A DNA stretch of 44,683 bases from Lachnospiraceae bacterium (lineage in GTDB: Bacteria > Bacillota > Clostridia > Lachnospirales > Lachnospiraceae): contig JAJBVI010000160.1 in the NCBI GenBank assembly GCA_020859905.1, positions 1 through 44,683 on the forward strand, read 5' to 3'. Of the stretch, positions 6,185 to 44,683 are shown in pieces (within the stretch, counting starts at the first letter, position 1; each line of letters starts with the position of its first letter). The notes beneath the pieces are model-generated. The model was not told the origin of the DNA. It did no database searches and worked only from the letters and a program-made list of their open reading frames with translations. The position numbers were made by a program, and so were the translations under genes.

Positions 6185-6325
6185 CCGTCTTTCACTGCCA
6201 TACCGCAGATCCCCGCTGCTTTCGGCGGCTTCAGGTGGAACACGGCAGTAAATGGTTCCGTCTTTCGCTGTCATGTCGCAGATCCCCGCTGTTTTTCGGC
6301 GGCTTCCGGTGGAACACGGCAGTAA
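6185..6325. repeat. Tandem duplication of a ~68-bp hairpin-forming segment (period 73 bp)
   Basis: Copies CCGTCTTTCACTGCC...GGAACACGGCAGTAA and CCGTCTTTCGCTGTC...GGAACACGGCAGTAA; each contains CCGCTG-TTTC/TTTT-CGGCGG. Confidence 0.85.
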
Positions 6326-33181: not shown

Positions 33182-34573
33182 CTACACATGCAGGACATGA
33201 TGTCCCGCCGCTTTCATCAGGCGGTTCATGACCGCAGTTCCGATCCGCAGCGATGAAAAACTCTCTGAATAAATGCGATCCGCACCAAGCGCATCCATCT
33301 CCCGCAGAACCGCAAACAGATGACGCGCAATGCTGTCCTCATCCGCACGGCTTCCAATGGAACGGACAAACTCCGCTTGATACCTGCGCTCTGTCTCCTC
33401 CGTGCAGATCACGCCTGTTTTGATTCCCCGCCGGCGATTTTCCGCCGCCATGGTGTTGATTCGCCGAATCACGGCTTCGCCTGCCCCGCTGACAATGAGC
33501 ATCTCCGCTTTCGGCGCGTAATGCCGGTACTTCATCCCCGGCGCTTTCGGGTATGCGGCTGCTCCTGCCGGATCAAAACCGACTATTTCTCTTAATTCGG
33601 GGTCAGCCGCCCCTGCCGGGCCGTTATCGGCTGCTCCTGCCGTACCTTTGTCTGTATCGCCGGTCAGTCCGGGGCTGTTGCCGACGGCTCCTGTCAGTTC
33701 TCTATCTGTATCCCCGGCCAGACCCGGATCGTCGCCGACAGCTCCGATCACCTCCGCCAGCATCTCCCGCGTGATATAACCGGGACGCAGAACCAGCGGA
33801 GTCTCATCCGCGACCCATGCGCCGTCCGCCGTCTGCGTGATGCAGCTCAGATCTATAATTGTGGATTCTATGCCGATGCCGACAGTTCCGCCGTCCAGAA
33901 TCAGCGGGATCTTACCGGCCAGATCCTCCGCCACATGCTCCGCCAGCGTGGGACTCGGCCGACCGGAAGTGTTTGCGCTCGGCGCCGCGATATAGCCGCC
34001 GCTCTCCCGGATCAGAGCCAGCGCGGCCGGGTGATCCGGCATCCGGACTGCCACGGTGTCCAGTCCTCCCGTCGTCTCGTACGGTACAATCTCGCTTTTA
34101 CGAAAAATCATGGTCAGCGGCCCCGGCCAGAACGCATCCGCCAGCAGACGCGTCTGCGGAGGTATCTCCCGCGCGATCCGGTAAAGGGCGTCAAAATCCG
34201 CTATGTGGATAATCAGGGGATTATCCGACGGGCGTCCCTTCGCCGCGTATATTTTTCTGGCCGCCTCCGAACGCAGCGCATCCGCCCCCAATCCGTACAC
34301 GGTCTCCGTGGGAAAAGCGACCAGTCCTCCCGCTTTCAGGACATCGGCCGCGGCACGAATATGATCGAAATCGGGATCCCGCGGGTCTATTTTCCGAATT
34401 TCCGTGATTACGTGACCGGGTTTATCATACTCCGCTATTTGCGGGTTATTCTCCTGATTGTTTTTCTCTCTGTCCACGGGACAGCATATATCAGATTCCG
34501 CTATTTGCGGGTTATTCTCCTGAATATTTTTCTCTCTTCCGGCAATCATAGGGATGATTATAACACAGATCAT
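33182..34573 (-). CDS. ywlC: L-threonylcarbamoyladenylate synthase (Sua5/YwlC type)
   Basis: GGLVAFPTETVYGLGADA, KGRPSDNPLIIHI, PSANTSGRPSPT, C-terminal Sua5 domain PKAPGMKYRHYAPKAEM. Exact start uncertain. Confidence 0.9.
   Translation of the reverse strand: MICVIIIPMIAGREKNIQENNPQIAESDICCPVDREKNNQENNPQIAEYDKPGHVITEIRKIDPRDPDFDHIRAAADVLKAGGLVAFPTETVYGLGADALRSEAARKIYAAKGRPSDNPLIIHIADFDALYRIAREIPPQTRLLADAFWPGPLTMIFRKSEIVPYETTGGLDTVAVRMPDHPAALALIRESGGYIAAPSANTSGRPSPTLAEHVAEDLAGKIPLILDGGTVGIGIESTIIDLSCITQTADGAWVADETPLVLRPGYITREMLAEVIGAVGDDPGLAGDTDRELTGAVGNSPGLTGDTDKGTAGAADNGPAGAADPELREIVGFDPAGAAAYPKAPGMKYRHYAPKAEMLIVSGAGEAVIRRINTMAAENRRRGIKTGVICTEETERRYQAEFVRSIGSRADEDSIARHLFAVLREMDALGADRIYSESFSSLRIGTAVMNRLMKAAGHHVLHV
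34432..34523. repeat. 26-bp perfect direct repeat (period 66 bp) in the Sua5 N-terminal region
   Basis: CCGCTATTTGCGGGTTATTCTCCTGA at 34432 and 34498. Confidence 0.9.
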
Positions 34574-35851: not shown

Positions 35852-37807
35852 ATGCCGCAGGGAGAATACGCCGCCGCCCTCAAGGCAGGAAAAAAAGAGA
35901 TACAGGCACGGGCAGCGGCCGGACTGCCGACCGGGCTGCCCGCGCTGGATGACATTCTGGAGCATGTCGAGATCCGCGGGGAGGTACCGCTCGGTCTGAT
36001 CGACATCCCCGCGGAGCTAATCGTCGGGACGAAGACCGTCAGCCGCACCACATCCTTTGCCCCCAACTTCATGCCGATCCTCGAGGAAGGTTCGGAATTT
36101 TCCATGAAATGGAACAGTCTGTGCCGCGCACATCTGCAGGAGGGCATCCGTGAACCGATCAAAGTATATGAATATTTAAACAGATACTATGTCCTGGAGG
36201 GGAATAAGCGCGTCAGCGTCCTGAAATATTTCGATGCCACCAGCATCCCCGGCTATGCGACGCGCATCATCCCCGCCTGGAAAGATACGCGTGAGATCAG
36301 GATTTACTATGAGTTTCTGGATTTTTACAACGAGACCAGCATCAACTACCTGGAATTTACCCGGGAGGGAAGCTACCGGAGACTCAGCCACCTGACCGGC
36401 CACAGGGTGAATGACCGCTGGAGTCCGGACGACCGCATGGATTTCCGCTCCTGCTACAACCGGTTTTCGGATGCCTTTGAGGAACGGGGCGGGCAAAAAC
36501 TGTCCTGTACGACCGGCGACGCGTTTCTGACCTATCTCAGCCTGTTCGGCTATGAGGAAGTCAAAAAAGAAACGGCCGCCGATTTTAAAACAAATCTCAA
36601 AAAGCTCTGGGATGAGATCGAACTGAATTTCCGCGACGCCGGACCGGAGGAGAAGATCGACATGAAGCTGGATCCGACGCCGGATACCAGAAAAGGCCTG
36701 ATCTCACAGATTCTGACCGTCTCCTCGTCTTCCGCCCGCGCGGTTACCAAAATCGCCTTTATCCACACCAGGACGACGGACACCTCCAGCTGGACCTACT
36801 CCCACGAGCTTGGGCGCATGTACGTGAATGATATTTTTCACGGGGAAGTAGAGACCGCCGCCTATGAAAACAATTTCACCGACGCGGACGCACAGAGTGC
36901 CATTGAGCAGGCAATCAGTGACGGCAACACGATCATTTTCACAACGACTCCTGTTTTCCTCGCCGCCAGCATCAAGGCCGCGATCAACCACCCGGAGATC
37001 AGAATTTTAAACTGCTCCCTGAACACCTCGCACAAGTACATACGGACTTACTATGCCAGAATATTTGAGGCGAAGCTGCTGAACGGAGTTCTCGCGGGCA
37101 TCATGACGGACACCAATACGATCGGTTACATCGCCGACTACCCTATCACCGCCATGCCCGCCACCATCAACGCATTCGCCATCGGAGTGAAAATGGTGAA
37201 TCCTCAGGCGCGGATTTTTCTGGAGTGGTCCACCGCGAAGGAAAATAAGGGAGTGGATCTCACGGAAAAATTATACAGCAAAGGCGCCACTTACATTTCT
37301 CATCTGGATATGATTGTCCCCCGGCATGCCACGCGGCGCTATGGGTTGTACCGCGTCAACGGGGAGACGCCGGTGAACCTCGCTTTCCCGGTTCTTGACT
37401 GGGGGAAATACTACGAGCGCATCATCCGGAACATCCGGCACGGCACCTGGAATGCCGAGAGCAAAACCGACGCAAAAAAAGCGGTGAGCTATTTCTGGGG
37501 CATGTCCTCGGGAGTGGTGGACGTCGTCTGGTCTTCCGCCATCCCCGCGGAGACGAGAAATCTTCTGGAGACCCTGAAGCATTCCATTACGCGCTACGAT
37601 TTTAACCCGTTCGCCGGTGTGCTGAACTCACAGGCCGGCACGGTTCAGTCCGATCCCGCGCACAGGATGTCCACAAATGAGATTATAGCCATAGACTGGC
37701 TGGCGGACAACATAACGGGCTGCATTCCCGCCATCAGGGACCTGGTTCCTGAAGCACAGGCCGTCGTGCGCCAGGAGGGCATCCGCAGGGAGGATGGCTC
37801 CGAATGA
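35852..37807 (+). CDS. ParB-like N-terminal domain fused to BMP/PnrA-like ligand-binding domain, no signal peptide
   Basis: N-terminus: IREPIKVYEYLNRYYVLEGNKRVSVLKYF. C-terminus: KIAFIHTRTTDTSSWTYSHELGR...GVLAGIMTDTNTIGYIADYP. GGAGG RBS before ATG 35852. Confidence 0.75.
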   Translation: MPQGEYAAALKAGKKEIQARAAAGLPTGLPALDDILEHVEIRGEVPLGLIDIPAELIVGTKTVSRTTSFAPNFMPILEEGSEFSMKWNSLCRAHLQEGIREPIKVYEYLNRYYVLEGNKRVSVLKYFDATSIPGYATRIIPAWKDTREIRIYYEFLDFYNETSINYLEFTREGSYRRLSHLTGHRVNDRWSPDDRMDFRSCYNRFSDAFEERGGQKLSCTTGDAFLTYLSLFGYEEVKKETAADFKTNLKKLWDEIELNFRDAGPEEKIDMKLDPTPDTRKGLISQILTVSSSSARAVTKIAFIHTRTTDTSSWTYSHELGRMYVNDIFHGEVETAAYENNFTDADAQSAIEQAISDGNTIIFTTTPVFLAASIKAAINHPEIRILNCSLNTSHKYIRTYYARIFEAKLLNGVLAGIMTDTNTIGYIADYPITAMPATINAFAIGVKMVNPQARIFLEWSTAKENKGVDLTEKLYSKGATYISHLDMIVPRHATRRYGLYRVNGETPVNLAFPVLDWGKYYERIIRNIRHGTWNAESKTDAKKAVSYFWGMSSGVVDVVWSSAIPAETRNLLETLKHSITRYDFNPFAGVLNSQAGTVQSDPAHRMSTNEIIAIDWLADNITGCIPAIRDLVPEAQAVVRQEGIRREDGSE

Positions 37808-37876
37808 AAACTATACCGCACAGGCCGACCGGAGACAGACAGGCCGGCATCCGCAGGGAGGATGGCTCCGAATGAA
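37778..37876 (+). repeat. 31-bp perfect direct repeat (period 68 bp) spanning stop codon/RBS/start codon junction
   Basis: GGCATCCGCAGGGAGGATGGCTCCGAATGAA at 37778-37808 and 37846-37876. Confidence 0.95.
37804..37875 (+). CDS. 23-aa mini-ORF created by the junction duplication (MKTIPHRPTGDRQAGIRREDGSE)
   Basis: ATGA overlaps at both ends and its own GGGAGGA RBS. Confidence 0.4.
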   Translation: MKTIPHRPTGDRQAGIRREDGSE

Positions 37877-38480
37877 GATTATGGCGATCGCGGACGCTGC
37901 GTCGCCGGCGCTCTGGGAACACTACAATGACAACAAACTGTACGACACCGATCTGATCGTTTCCTGCGGGGATCTCGATCCCCGCTATCTGTCGTTTCTC
38001 GTCACATGCGTGAATGTGCCTCTTTTGTATGTACACGGAAACCACGACGAATGCTATGACGACATTCCGCCGGACGGATGCATCTGCATCGACGACCGCG
38101 TCTATGTCCATAACGGCATCCGTTTTCTCGGTCTGGGCGGCTGTTTCCCCTACAACAAAGGAAAATATATGTACACGGAAGCACAGATGAAGCGGCGGAT
38201 CCGCAGGGTCTCCCGCCAGATCCGGAAATACGGAGGTCTGGATGTGCTCGTCACACATGCGCCCGTGCGCGGCATCGGGGACGGGGAGGATCTGCCCCAC
38301 CGCGGCTACCAGGCATTCATCCCGCTTCTGGAAAAATGCCGTCCGCCGTATATGCTGCACGGACATGTCCACATGCAGTATGACTATACCCTGAAACGAG
38401 AAAACGAGTATCAGGATACTAAAATTATCAACGCGTACGAGAAATATTTCCTGGAGATACAGGATGGCGGGGCTGTTTAG
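37872..38480 (+). CDS. Metallophosphoesterase
   Basis: IVSCGDLDPRYLSFL, YVHGNHDECYD, VLVTHAPVRGIGDGEDLPHRG, LHGHVHMQY. Confidence 0.9.
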   Translation: MKIMAIADAASPALWEHYNDNKLYDTDLIVSCGDLDPRYLSFLVTCVNVPLLYVHGNHDECYDDIPPDGCICIDDRVYVHNGIRFLGLGGCFPYNKGKYMYTEAQMKRRIRRVSRQIRKYGGLDVLVTHAPVRGIGDGEDLPHRGYQAFIPLLEKCRPPYMLHGHVHMQYDYTLKRENEYQDTKIINAYEKYFLEIQDGGAV

Positions 38481-38554: not shown

Positions 38555-39106
38555 TTAGCGAAGCCCCAGGTAATCGGATATCCCTCCGCAGATGGCCTCC
38601 ACGAGCCGCACCTGGTAATCCTCCGCGCCAAGTAGCGCCTCCTCTGTCGGATTCGAGAGAAAACCGCACTCCACGATCACGGTAGGCACTGATGTCTTTT
38701 TCAGAATGTAGTAGCTCTCATTTGCCTTCGCCGCGCGTGTGTTCGAAGGATCCAGATTCTCGATCAGGCTCCGCTGCAGAGCCTCCGCCAGCGCTTCTCC
38801 CTGCGCGGAATCCCCGTAATAAAACACCTGCGCCCCGCTGACCGCGCTGTCCGTATAGCTGTTCTGGTGGATGCTGACCGCCAGTGCCGGCGCGGTCTCT
38901 TCAATGAGTGCCACACGGTTTTTCAGGTCGGAAACCTTGACACTCTCCGCGTCCTCGTCCGCCAGACTTTCGTCCTCCTCCCGGGTCATCACGACCTCAT
39001 ATCCCAGCTCCTCCAGGGCATCACGCAGTTTTATGGCAATGTCCAGATTGATATCCTTCTCCTTCGTGCCGGACACGCCGACTTTACCGGGGTCATCGCC
39101 GCCGTG
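38555..39106 (-). pseudogene. cwlD: N-acetylmuramoyl-L-alanine amidase CwlD-like, 3' portion only; 5' end replaced by element DNA
   Basis: Homology begins at HGGDDPGKVGVSGTKEKDINLDIA; the preceding beta strand and (D/P)G of IVIDxGHGG are missing. Contains IHQNSYTDSAVSGAQVFYY and VIVECGFLSNPTEEALL. Confidence 0.8.
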
Positions 39107-39191
39107 GGGCGGTAGTAAATTGCGGTAATTTGTACCGATGTGGTACGTTTGATTTTTCTTAATGTGCTTCGTAGAAAATTGAAATCTGCTG

Positions 39192-39300
39192 TTGACAAAT
39201 TTCAAAAGAAATGGTATGTTTCTTATCAAAGAGAAGCGGTTTTTTGCCACTCGTCTACAATGCTTTGTAGTCCTTGAGTGGGTTGCTCGCTTCTTTTTTT
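39192..39300 (+). ncRNA. Candidate small structured RNA with promoter and intrinsic terminator
   Basis: TTGACA-N17-(TGG)TATGTT promoter at 39192-39220; nested stems AGAAGCG/CGCTTCT, CCACTC/GAGTGG, CTACAA/TTGTAG; T7 run at 39294-39300. Confidence 0.55.
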
Positions 39301-39779
39301 ATGTCCAGGAGATCGTATAAATACATCTTTCCAAACACTGTGCAGTTAATAAGCAACCGCGCCGAGTAGATATGATAAATATCCGTCTTAATCTCATTGT
39401 CATAGGTCGGCATTGCAAAACGTGTCTTATAGTAATACCAGCCATTGCCTGCCATAAAAGAATGCTTGTCCTTCTGATTCGCATGAAATTCCTTTTCCGT
39501 TGCGATTTCCAGCATTTCAGGAATTGCTTGAGCAGCATTCGCCTTCACTTTGGCATTTGACCCTTTAAGATGTCTTATGTATTTTGAACCGCTGAACTCA
39601 TCAGGAAATTCATTCCCAATATAAATGATATCCTGTGTTTCCGCGATTGTAACAATTTCACCAACATATTTCTTTAAATAACTCTCAACCGCATCCCAGT
39701 CAATACTATGCTTGTTTTTAAAAATAACCTCAGGCAAAACAACGATCTTATGACCATTTTCATCCATTACAATCTTCAT
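39255..39779 (-). CDS. Mobile-element-associated hypothetical protein (resembles C-terminal domains of phage MuF-type polyvalent proteins)
   Basis: 174 aa, NGWYYYKTRFAMPTYDNEIKTDIYHIYSARLLINCTVFGKMYLYDLLDIKKEASNPL; downstream of the recombinase in the same operon. Confidence 0.5.
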   Translation of the reverse strand: MKIVMDENGHKIVVLPEVIFKNKHSIDWDAVESYLKKYVGEIVTIAETQDIIYIGNEFPDEFSGSKYIRHLKGSNAKVKANAAQAIPEMLEIATEKEFHANQKDKHSFMAGNGWYYYKTRFAMPTYDNEIKTDIYHIYSARLLINCTVFGKMYLYDLLDIKKEASNPLKDYKAL

Positions 39780-39813: not shown

Positions 39814-41412
39814 TTAATTTTCATAGGTATCCGGAAATAAATGTGCCAGCTCGTCTGAAAAGTTGTAAGTGATTTTGATTCTGTGATCCTCGTAAACCCG
39901 AATCTCATGGATCATCTCCACTACCATATCCCGATCCAGCTTTTCTACATTCCGGAATGTGAGCAGCCGTTTTACCCACGGGCTTTCCAGAACATCTCCG
40001 GCAGTCCTCTTTTCTGACTGGCGCTCCAGATCTTCCATCTGCTTTGTAAGCATTTCTTCTTTTTTTACATAATCCTGTCTGTAAGCGACAAACTCGTCTT
40101 TGGAAATCAGACCCTCCCGGTAATCCTCATAAACTGCTTTTTTGAGGTTTCTCAACTTCTCCAGTTCCGCGGACAAACGGTTTCTTTCATTTCCGTTTTG
40201 ACGTTTTGCGAAAGCCTCCTGCGCCTGATTCTGCTCAAGCAATTCCTGTAGATTCTCCGCACTCTCTATGATTGCGTTCAGGTCGTTTCGTATCACATTC
40301 TCAAGAACCGAATATGGAATTGCATGTGCGCTGCAATACTGTCTGCCGGAGCGGACATAAGTTCCGCAATAGTAGTTGATATTCCCGGCGCCATGTCCGG
40401 ACGATCCGATTTTCTTCACCAGCGCCCTGCCGCAGTCCCCGCATTTCAGGAATCCGGCAAACACAGACATATTAGAGTTCAGGTCAAGCTCGCGCGTCCG
40501 GCGTCCCAATAATTCCTGTGTCTTCTGCCATGTTTCCGGATCAATGATGGCCTCGTATGTATGCTCCACAATAATCCAGTCCTCTTTGTCCACACTCTTC
40601 TGCCTGCCCTTCATCCGCTGGGTTTTCCTGCCCTGCACCATATTTCCGGCATACATCTCATTTTTCAGAATGCGGTTCACCGTGGAATACGTCCAGTAAG
40701 AAGTGCTTTCCAGCTTCCGGCTGTTCCGATAATTTTCGCCATTCATCCGCTTATATTCGGACGGACACACAATCCCATCTTCATTCAACGCTTTCGCAAT
40801 GCTGTTTTTCCCATATCCGCTGACATACATTTTGAAAATCCGGCGCACCACATTCGCGGCGTAATCGTCAATCACCAGCTTATTTTTGTCAATGGGAGAT
40901 TTCCGATAACCATAGGATGCAAACGCCCCGATAAACTCCCCTGCCTTCTGCTTGGTTTTCATGGAGGCATGGACTTTCTTTGAGATGTCCCTGGCGTACT
41001 GCTCGTTGAAAATATTTTTGATCGGCAGCAGGATATCATAAGCCTGTTTCATGCTGTCAATATTATCTGTGATAGCGATAAACCGCACATCGTTATCCGG
41101 AAAATAACGCTCCAGATACCTGCCTGTCTCAATATAATCCCTCCCGAAGCGGGATAGGTCCTTGACAATGACACAATTTACTTTTCCATCCTCGATATCA
41201 TCCATCATTCTCAGAAAAGAAGGTCTTTGAAAGCTAAGACCCGTAAATCCATCGTCCACATAAGTATCATAGACAACAAATTCGGTCCGTCCTTTCAGAT
41301 AATCCGCGATCAGTTTCCTCTGGTTTCCGATGCTGTCACTTTCTGCCTTATCACCATCCTCTCTGGATAACCTGATATATTCAGCTACGTTGAAAAGAGT
41401 TTGTTTCTTCAT
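39814..41412 (-). CDS. Large serine recombinase (resolvase domain + recombinase domain + zinc ribbon + coiled coil)
   Basis: AEYIRLSREDGDKAESDSIGNQ, VKDLSRFGRDYIETGRYLE, FLKCGDCGRALVKK; ATG 41412 with AGGTGAG. Confidence 0.95.
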   Translation of the reverse strand: MKKQTLFNVAEYIRLSREDGDKAESDSIGNQRKLIADYLKGRTEFVVYDTYVDDGFTGLSFQRPSFLRMMDDIEDGKVNCVIVKDLSRFGRDYIETGRYLERYFPDNDVRFIAITDNIDSMKQAYDILLPIKNIFNEQYARDISKKVHASMKTKQKAGEFIGAFASYGYRKSPIDKNKLVIDDYAANVVRRIFKMYVSGYGKNSIAKALNEDGIVCPSEYKRMNGENYRNSRKLESTSYWTYSTVNRILKNEMYAGNMVQGRKTQRMKGRQKSVDKEDWIIVEHTYEAIIDPETWQKTQELLGRRTRELDLNSNMSVFAGFLKCGDCGRALVKKIGSSGHGAGNINYYCGTYVRSGRQYCSAHAIPYSVLENVIRNDLNAIIESAENLQELLEQNQAQEAFAKRQNGNERNRLSAELEKLRNLKKAVYEDYREGLISKDEFVAYRQDYVKKEEMLTKQMEDLERQSEKRTAGDVLESPWVKRLLTFRNVEKLDRDMVVEMIHEIRVYEDHRIKITYNFSDELAHLFPDTYEN

Positions 41413-41417
41413 GTTGC

Positions 41418-41609
41418 TCACCTGCGGGCCGCTGTCCCTGTGGCTATTGTACCGCAGGAAGCGACATTTTCCAATTCATTTTTACAAGTTTCATCCGGTT
41501 TTTGCAGATGCGTCCGGATCAGACGGCGGAGCATTTCCTCCGACGTGCAGCGGGAGAGAAATTCTCTTTCGATCACATATGATATTTTTTCGGATTTCTT
41601 TTCTCTCAC
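41418..41609 (-). CDS. Small protein encoded directly upstream of the recombinase
   Basis: GTG start with CAGGAG RBS (AGGAGACATAAGGTG); stop overlaps the recombinase initiation region. MREKKSEKISYVIEREFLSRCTSEEMLRRLIRTHL. Confidence 0.55.
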   Translation of the reverse strand: MREKKSEKISYVIEREFLSRCTSEEMLRRLIRTHLQKPDETCKNELENVASCGTIATGTAARR

Positions 41610-41744
41610 CTTATGTCTCCTGTTTCGCTATCTGTAAAACATATGGGACAGGGCTTATCCTATATACGTTCTATTTGTTTGAAAATTCGTTTATAGATTA
41701 AAAATTTTGGTGTTGAGAATTAAGAAAAATCAATGGAATCAGCA

Positions 41745-41842: not shown

Positions 41843-42919
41843 ATGTTAAAAATGATTACTGAGAGAACAGCTGATTACAATGCGAACACTTTTATTAATG
41901 AACTTTTTGAGGCATCGAAATCGTTAGGCATACTTGAGGAAAAAATTTCCGGATATCATTTTAACAGTATTTTAATTCCGATGTTTCAGAATAAAGAGGC
42001 AATTTCTTCCATGCAGATTGAAGGAACTCAAACTACAATTTCTGATGTATTCGAAGACAGGATTAACACCACAAAAGACACCAATGATAAAGTTATGCTT
42101 GAATACCGAAATCATACTCAGGCGCTTCTTTATGGCAAAGATTATTTGAGGGGAAATGGCTTTACTGATGATTTTTTGAAAAAATTGCATCACATCATGA
42201 TGAAGGGAATTCTTCCGCCGCAAAAGAAGAAAAGCATAGGCCGCTACAAAAATAAAGATAACTTTATTGTTAACAGTGTTGGAACCGTAGTATTTACACC
42301 TCCTTCTTACACAGAAACAAGCAAATATATGCGCGAACTGACCGCATTTATGAATTGCAGTACAGATGGAATAAATCCGCTTATAAAAGCTGCCATAATA
42401 CATTCACAGTTCGAGTCAATCCATCCTTTCGAAGATGGAAACGGACGCGTAGGACGTCTTTTGGTCAGTCTGTATTTATATAAAGCGAAAGTGATTAATT
42501 TCCCATTCTTTTATATTAGTGAAGCTATTAGTCAGGATAAAGCTGTCTATTACAACAAGCTGACGGATTCCCGCATGAATAGTTATGATGATTGGATTAA
42601 ATTCTTCCTTCAAAAATGTATTGTTCAGGCAAACAACCATATTGGCTATATTGATTCTTTAAACAAGTTATATGAGAGAACCAAGTCTGTGGTAAAAGAA
42701 TCCATAAACAGTCCTAAATTTGATCAGATTATTGAATGTATTTTTACGCAGCCGATTATCACGGTGGCATATCTTGCAGACCAACTTTCCGTAAGTTCGG
42801 GTCAGGCAAAAAGATACATTGACAAGCTGGAGGATAAGCAAATTCTACTTGGTGATGATCGTAAGCGCGGACGTAAATATATTTTTGTAGAACTTTTGGA
42901 TTTGGCAAGACGAATCTGA
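41843..42919 (+). CDS. Fic-family protein with N-terminal inhibitory motif and C-terminal winged helix
   Basis: Fic core HPFEDGNGRVGR; inhibitory motif SSMQIEGT (SxxxEG); C-terminal ITVAYLADQLSVSSGQAKRYIDKLEDKQILL. Confidence 0.9.
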   Translation: MLKMITERTADYNANTFINELFEASKSLGILEEKISGYHFNSILIPMFQNKEAISSMQIEGTQTTISDVFEDRINTTKDTNDKVMLEYRNHTQALLYGKDYLRGNGFTDDFLKKLHHIMMKGILPPQKKKSIGRYKNKDNFIVNSVGTVVFTPPSYTETSKYMRELTAFMNCSTDGINPLIKAAIIHSQFESIHPFEDGNGRVGRLLVSLYLYKAKVINFPFFYISEAISQDKAVYYNKLTDSRMNSYDDWIKFFLQKCIVQANNHIGYIDSLNKLYERTKSVVKESINSPKFDQIIECIFTQPIITVAYLADQLSVSSGQAKRYIDKLEDKQILLGDDRKRGRKYIFVELLDLARRI

Positions 42920-43120: not shown

Positions 43121-43744
43121 ATGACATCAAAAGAAATGCGGGAAAACCCGCTGTTTATGAGGAATAATTTTAAAACATCAGGGAGATGGGAACTTCCGTT
43201 AATAAAAAGACAGAAGTTGAACTCAGAAGATATTGCGCTCATCCCATACTCAGATACTCGGGCACATGATTCGGCAAGCAATACGCAAAGGGGAGTTCAT
43301 TTCTTTGTTGACGATTATCGCTTTACCGGAATTTATAATAATCCGGAGAAAAGCCCTGGGCGTTTGATGCAATATGCGTTTCTGCTGTCACCTGATTATT
43401 CCACTTATGCGGATATGAACGACTGGAGACAATTAGAGAGTGTAGCACATAGCCGATGGGTTGGAGCTTTTTGGCAAAGTAAAGAGGCTATCGTGTATCC
43501 GACTATCAGCTGGAGCACTCCATCAAGTTATGACTTTTGTTTTGAAGGAATTGAAAGGGGATCAATTGTAGCTGTAGGTATGATTGGATGCAAACAAAAC
43601 AAGATTAGTTTCATGCGTGGTTACAATGTTATGCTTGATAAAATTGATCCTGAGAAGGTTATTGTTTTTGGACGACCATATCCGGAGATGAAAGGCAGCC
43701 TTATTACGGTAGACTATTCAGATTCCAGAAGGGAGGCTGTATGA
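43121..43744 (+). CDS. DUF4417-family protein
   Basis: MRNNFKTSGRWELPLIK...VHFFVDDYRFTGIYNNPEKSPGRLMQYAFLLSPDYSTYADM...RWVGAFWQSK. Confidence 0.75.
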   Translation: MTSKEMRENPLFMRNNFKTSGRWELPLIKRQKLNSEDIALIPYSDTRAHDSASNTQRGVHFFVDDYRFTGIYNNPEKSPGRLMQYAFLLSPDYSTYADMNDWRQLESVAHSRWVGAFWQSKEAIVYPTISWSTPSSYDFCFEGIERGSIVAVGMIGCKQNKISFMRGYNVMLDKIDPEKVIVFGRPYPEMKGSLITVDYSDSRREAV

Positions 43745-43745
43745 T

Positions 43746-44144
43746 ATGGGAGGCAGAGGAACATTTGCTGCGGGGAATCCGGTGCCTTATACATACAAAA
43801 AAGTGGGTGATGTAGAAGGTGTTAAGGTATTGGAAGGAATCAATGGAAAACATGGACTTCCAGAGTCCTCGCATTCAAGTGAAGCATATATTAAGCTCAA
43901 ACCAGACGGAACATTTCATGAAATGCGGTTTTATGATAAAGATCATGTTCTGTATATGGAGATTGCGTACCATCCGGAGTATTCACTGACTGGTGATCGT
44001 CACACTCCTGTTTTGCACTATCATTTGTATGATAGCAGCTTCAGCAAAAATAAAACAGGTGCTTTTTCCAGAAGTAAAGCGGCACGGCTGACAGAGGAAA
44101 TGAAATTAAAGTATAAAAAGTATTTCAAGGGGGTGAGCGTATGA
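43746..44144 (+). CDS. Mobile-element/phage-associated protein starting MGGRG
   Basis: MGGRGTFAAGNP...GKHGLPESSHSSEAYIKLKPDGTFHEMRFYDKDHVLYMEIAYHPE..HTPVLHYHLYD; follows the DUF4417 stop directly. Confidence 0.55.
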   Translation: MGGRGTFAAGNPVPYTYKKVGDVEGVKVLEGINGKHGLPESSHSSEAYIKLKPDGTFHEMRFYDKDHVLYMEIAYHPEYSLTGDRHTPVLHYHLYDSSFSKNKTGAFSRSKAARLTEEMKLKYKKYFKGVSV

Positions 44145-44422
44145 TTAATGGATCTCCAAACGAATTTGTGGATAGGATTTATTCCTGCCAGGACACAGTA
44201 TTCATTTATAAGGGTATTAAATACTGGTTTCAAGGGTATATGCCATCTGATCATTCTGTACACATGGAAATATTTCAATATCATCCCTCTGACGAAAAAT
44301 GGTTATGGAAATATGACGGGAAAAGCATTGAGGAGTGTCAGTATGCTTTCTTATCTGCTCAGATTTTTGACGGTAAAACTTTTTGGGATGCTGAGCAGGA
44401 AATCGTATGGGTGGATAGTTGA
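44141..44422 (+). CDS. Hypothetical protein, partner of the MGGRG protein
   Basis: 93 aa; ATGA overlap with the preceding gene; MINGSPNEFVDRIYSCQDTVFIYKGIKYWFQGYMPSD. Confidence 0.6.
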   Translation: MINGSPNEFVDRIYSCQDTVFIYKGIKYWFQGYMPSDHSVHMEIFQYHPSDEKWLWKYDGKSIEECQYAFLSAQIFDGKTFWDAEQEIVWVDS

Positions 44423-44608: not shown

Positions 44609-44683
44609 GGGAGACCTTTATATGCCCACACTAGCGGTAGTTTACAAGTTACGTTCGAGCAGAGTCCACGACTGCTGATTTTA

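Follow-up and report, generated by a model that had tools for sequence, protein, structure and literature searches.

The amidase gene cwlD is split at the codons of its catalytic GHGG motif in the window, the whole stretch of 44,683 nucleotides of Lachnospiraceae DNA analyzed here. We consider it probable that a site-specific element with a serine recombinase has inserted into the gene, that the DNA of the GHGG motif serves as the attachment site, and that the element is excised in the mother cell in the style of skin. This developmental reading is the best-supported explanation, and it is stronger for the family of elements to which this one belongs than for the window locus alone.

The split is evident in the window itself. 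On the minus strand, cwlD begins abruptly at the catalytic His codon (window position 39106); the homologous part opens with CAC at 39104 to 39106 and runs to the stop codon at 38555 (tblastn alignment, 39106 to 38567). In hmmscan searches, the open frame at 38555 to 39250 (minus strand) matched TIGR02883 (spore_cwlD) over profile positions 7 to 189, the end of the model, with 205.5 bits, and Amidase_3 from profile position 5. TIGR02883 matches to intact CwlD proteins of the genus begin at position 2 or 3 and score 209 to 225 bits, so that ∼48 N-terminal residues are absent from the window protein, and its score below the curated cutoff (221.55) is expected of a part that lacks the first 6 model positions. 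The residues preceding HGG, TNYRNLLPP, are the product of element DNA, where GC content falls from 0.53 to 0.57 down to 0.39. A first-pass annotation of this DNA had recognized CwlD homology only from HGG onward, regarded TNYRNLLPP as foreign, and placed an AT-rich element with a large serine recombinase at the junction; all of this was borne out, and the interval it gave (38555 to 39112) is correct. A tail of the same type precedes HGG in two relatives (G001 and G016), and CwlD is cut at the identical residue in 5 of 20 genomes of the genus (G000, the source of the window, and G001, G003, G008, and G016), which indicates that the split is not due to chance.

The junction carries the core CACGGCGG (39099 to 39106, minus strand), which G016 and G002 share at their 5′ junctions, and CA at 39105 to 39106 is the likely crossover dinucleotide. 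Junction comparison places an attachment-site arm, CCGCAATTTACTACCGCC, at 39108 to 39125 (minus strand). It is one half of an inverted repeat, and its partner, which belongs to the right end missing from the window, is GGCGGAAGTCAGTTGCGG in G016. Since the window is an entire contig (G000:C223) of a draft genome (225 contigs, 2.25 Mb, 92.5% complete), the right junction lies outside it and the contig stops inside the element. Searches of the G000 draft with the cwlD N terminus, the G016 right-end sequence (3 mismatches), and the upstream neighbor gene did not recover the right end; neither the 5′ half of cwlD nor the gene normally upstream of it was found in the assembly. A second intact cwlD, which the first-pass annotation held would refute a developmental rearrangement, is likewise missing from the G000 assembly, where the sole other Amidase_3 gene is a 973-amino-acid frame, and the proposal is not refuted on this point.

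Beyond the junction, the element carries a 174-amino-acid open reading frame (ORF) without a family match (39255 to 39779, minus strand), common to elements of the G000/G016 type, and a large serine recombinase of 535 amino acids (39814 to 41421, minus strand) with Resolvase, Recombinase, and Zn_ribbon_recom domains. Directly upstream of the recombinase lies a 63-amino-acid ORF (YVIEREFL..EEMLRRLIRTH; 41418 to 41609, minus strand), a candidate recombination directionality factor, itself preceded by a promoter-like motif, GTATATAGGATAAGC-N7-CATATGTT (41638 to 41667, minus strand). Cargo on the plus strand comprises genes for a Fic/DOC family protein (41843 to 42919) and a DUF4417 protein (43127 to 43744), both assigned by domain search, and two small ORFs of 132 and 93 amino acids without family matches (43746 to 44422). 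No phage structural genes were found in the small complete elements of G003, G008, and G067; the window element is incomplete and ends at 44683. A plasmid search returned only short matches to the recombinase. The window recombinase is 97% identical to that of G016 (dS of 0.2), while cwlD of the same pair has a dS of 1.3. This element type thus spreads horizontally and forms part of a recently mobile subgroup, and the window copy looks recently acquired. Its cwlD may therefore have been broken only recently, and what we infer for the window copy rests on its relatives.

Those relatives supply the missing half. Two genomes of the same genus (G003 and G008) and one of another genus (G067) carry both cwlD halves on a single contig, oriented alike. 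The isolate genome of Lachnospiraceae bacterium 10-1 (L108, KE159810.1) also has both cwlD halves, separated by 6.06 kb, and further cultured carriers of the family are Blautia sp. An249 and Mediterraneibacter agrestimuris DSM 111629 (CwlC-like gene). The halves are ∼3.8 kb apart in G003 and G008, where a small ORF, the recombinase, amtB, and glnK (the last two named from sequence) follow one another in the direction of cwlD; the G067 element is only 1.9 kb and holds the recombinase alone. Both junctions of these three elements share the core CAYGG, and joining there would give the in-frame sequence DPGHGGNDPGK in G003 and G008 and DAGHGGKDPGK in G067, in agreement with the pattern DxGHGGxDPGK. 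No intact CwlD was found elsewhere in G000, G001, G003, G008, G016, G067, or G210. The expectation that the 5′ part of cwlD would lie at the other element end, oriented alike and with a shared core, thus holds in the relatives that cover the locus, but the window's own right junction is absent from the draft. The developmental rearrangement first proposed from the window is supported in part, by the 5′ part in relatives and the lack of a second cwlD. The mechanism of the window's own element is assumed to be that of its kin.

Some of these loci have features of their own. The ammonium-transporter-like amtB and the PII gene glnK (L047, 6481 to 9858, in G003; L049, 10047 to 13422, in G008) are unusual cargo for an element. 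In G016, one element copy (L053 in G016:C54, 3938 to 7953) links the 5′ part of cwlD to the 3′ part of a CwlC-like gene, and a second copy, 93% identical to the first (L048 in G016:C190, 4200 to 7318), runs into the 3′ part of cwlD; these odd pairings point to recombination of two elements that occupy two target genes, or else to a chimeric assembly. In G210, the 3′ part of a split cwlD lies beside a recombinase remnant at a contig end (L055, 6451 to 7414), possibly a decayed element.

The arrangement recurs well beyond cwlD. An alignment of five such recombinases, searched against named genomes, yielded 80 loci, ∼75 of which adjoin a truncated cell wall gene (73 by tblastn and 2 more by motif). 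Three genes are targeted: cwlD, pdaB, and a gene for an amidase with Amidase_3 and SPOR domains, each cut at a conserved catalytic motif. We call the last of these CwlC-like from its domain order, which resembles that of Bacillus subtilis CwlC. The cut falls in the GHGG codons of the amidases and in the FDAAW codons of pdaB, and the two motifs have similar DNA sequences (GAYGCNGGNCAYGG and GAYGCNGCNTGG). The split deacetylase matches TIGR02764 (PdaB) best of all families, with 203 bits from position 16, which is under the cutoff of 237.4, the match being to a fragment. Both halves lie in one orientation at 30 distinct loci, where the elements span 1.6 to 8.2 kb. The attachment arms constitute an inverted repeat with the general form CCGCAAGTTACCGCC...GGCGGTAACTTGCGG. 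At all junction pairs compared, precise excision would, judged on sequence, keep the reading frame. By contrast, only one of seven more distant recombinases (L164 to L170 of the family-wide search), used as a control, adjoins such a gene.

Closely similar recombinases occupy different targets in the recombinase tree (cwlD at L070 and pdaB at L072; cwlD in the window and a CwlC-like gene at L064), which indicates that one recombinase type serves all three genes. The tree contains some misframed rows with very long branches and was used only qualitatively, for close relatives with different targets. A close relative of the window recombinase also lies by a split pdaB in G006 (L236, G006:C27, 1 to 8000), a genome in which cwlD is intact. 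Neighboring ORFs there resemble part of a relaxase and a cysteine-rich mobile-element protein, and some elements of the family may therefore be mobilizable. At L090 (6049 to 8898), the pdaB halves flanking the recombinase point in opposite directions, and the gene could not be rebuilt there by simple excision.

Plain inactivation would mean that an integrase recognizing the conserved GHGG/DAAWG codons broke cwlD and that normal cortex formation in the host is lost or being lost. This reading was at first judged as possible as a developmental rearrangement. It is consistent with the recent mobility of the window's element group, the unrelated cargo of the window element, and the decayed recombinase remnant beside the split cwlD of G210. 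Genes that have long been split are nevertheless under strong purifying selection in lineages where the insertion seems to have been inherited vertically. At L133 and L135 (CwlC-like), the split gene has a dS of 1.36 and a dN/dS of 0.04 and the recombinase a dS of 1.22; the dN/dS of the split gene is 0.03 at L085 and L099 (cwlD) and 0.17 to 0.18 for cwlD of G003 and G008, which share the same cargo. Target and recombinase have diverged together in these pairs, and the insertions were therefore probably inherited. Such values (0.03 to 0.18), with frames intact on both sides of the element, argue against simple inactivation, since a dead gene would drift toward 1, and so does the restoration of the frame that precise excision would bring about every time. 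The equal standing first given to inactivation is thus not upheld, and we regard it as unlikely. The main alternative explanation of the low ratios is independent insertion of similar elements, which is least likely in G003/G008, given the same cargo, and in L133/L135, given the similar dS values. In the His codon, the third base is unconstrained on the 5′ side, which is discarded (CAG in L112, L133, and L135), and the 3′ side reads CAY; such a pattern would be expected of a crossover at CA that rebuilds the codon from the 3′ copy.

Several observations connect the split genes with sporulation. Two of the three targets, CwlD and PdaB, are named sporulation families, and cwlD of Clostridium difficile is under σE control (PMC3789822). 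Among 397 genomes of the window's family, which are related to one another and for which the P value of the co-occurrence is therefore nominal, 195 have both a CwlC-like gene and cwlD, 57 have cwlD only, 9 have the CwlC-like gene only, and 136 have neither. Both spoIVA and spoIIIAA are kept in G000 and its kin, with the exception of spoIVA, which is missing in the G002 draft.

Upstream of the recombinase by ∼200 to 310 bp is a 28-nucleotide motif, GYATATTGGAYAAGC-N7-MRTATG, present with ≤3 mismatches at 58 of 87 loci (near-copies included) and on the reverse strand at none. In a spacing sweep of 74 nonredundant loci, there was a sharp peak, with 25 at one spacing. The downstream half resembles the −10 element of mother-cell promoters, and GGAYAAGC may resemble the SpoIIID box (WWRRACARNY). 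The spacing exceeds that at spoIIIAA in these genomes by ∼2 bp, and 12 of 15 genome-wide matches lie at the recombinase; sporulation control is thus plausible rather than established. When the motif was compared in a sweep with the promoters of spoIVA and spoIIIAA in these genomes, to look for σE promoter identity, the spacing differed. A small ORF of the same kind as that in the window lies upstream of the recombinase at 70 of the 87 loci (none on the reverse strand) and is a candidate directionality factor. For skin of C. difficile, a small directionality factor produced under σE and SpoIIID is required (PMC5025042), and gin of Bacillus cereus needs the small factor GirX (PMC5595907).

We propose the following sequence of events. 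The promoter upstream of the small ORF would be turned on in the mother cell during sporulation, the small ORF would act as the directionality factor, and the recombinase would join the two cwlD halves and free the element as a circle. CwlD would then be produced from the repaired gene, and the germ line would keep the element because the mother cell dies. Excision might instead be random or otherwise cued outside the mother cell, giving a reversible mixture of cwlD-plus and cwlD-minus cells, as for yin of Clostridium botulinum, which was excised at all time points (PMC10747680). The departure of the promoter-like motif from host σE spacing would fit such switching, but a vegetative switch would have to target two named sporulation families, plus a gene co-occurring with cwlD, by coincidence, and we give this possibility slightly less weight than inactivation.

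That the element supplies a new N terminus, making the fused 231-amino-acid ORF from 39250 itself functional, is very improbable. The window frame is open from 39250 across the junction, but the product would lack the normal signal or transmembrane segment and the first strand, and in many kin a stop codon in frame immediately precedes HGG (e.g., L068, L082, L095, and L096), on which ground this reading was rejected. Although the window comes from a 225-contig draft metagenome and G016 has two 93%-identical copies with odd pairings, a chimeric junction can be practically dismissed, as numerous assemblies obtained independently contain the same junction, isolate genomes like that of Lachnospiraceae bacterium 10-1 (L108) among them.

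Excision of a large serine recombinase element to rebuild a split sporulation gene has a precedent in skin, in sigK of B. subtilis and C. difficile (PMC5025042). The elements described here, for which excision is proposed, differ in their targets and are far smaller than the 48-kb skin of B. subtilis. The gin element in gerE of B. cereus is also a nonprophage gene-intervening element with a recombinase and the small factor GirX (PMC5595907), but it is 28.6 kb and has three recombinases, compared with one recombinase, other targets, and sizes down to 1.6 kb here. SPβ in spsM, vfbin in spoVFB, and yin in yabG likewise interrupt a sporulation gene at the attachment site of an integrase (PMC4191935 and PMC10747680); these are single cases with single target genes, prophage or prophage-like, and none lies in cwlD, pdaB, or a CwlC-like gene. 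Among sequences with solved structures, phmmer placed the recombinase nearest TnpX and the SPβ integrase (YokA/SprA), large serine recombinases too, whereas the present family is a separate set adjoining three cell wall genes. We found no report of these three genes as targets of intervening elements in the open-access papers searched. The family is apparently unreported, and its target set, recurrence over many genera, catalytic-codon attachment site, and very small elements appear to be new.

On balance, we favor the view that a dedicated family of recombinases has found a safe harbor in mother-cell wall genes (cwlD, pdaB, and the CwlC-like gene), at their catalytic-motif codons, making several cell wall steps of Lachnospiraceae dependent on DNA rearrangement, with elements that shrink to ∼1.65 kb and little beyond the recombinase and one lineage that carries amtB-glnK. 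The sporulation-gated rearrangements known so far amount to a few isolated examples, most of them from Bacillus and pathogenic clostridia. The present elements, found in dozens of gut bacteria, would form a family that recurs and spreads horizontally among commensal spore formers of the gut and strikes three cell wall genes at their catalytic codons, and their small size would permit direct reconstitution in vitro. Split cwlD, pdaB, and CwlC-like genes in gut genomes would then not simply be pseudogenes, a warning to annotators that bears on predicting which gut bacteria sporulate. Elsewhere in the window, self-comparison detected imperfect short tandem duplications (43 to 68 bp, 85 to 91% identical) at 37772 to 37882, 34410 to 34537, and 6185 to 6325.
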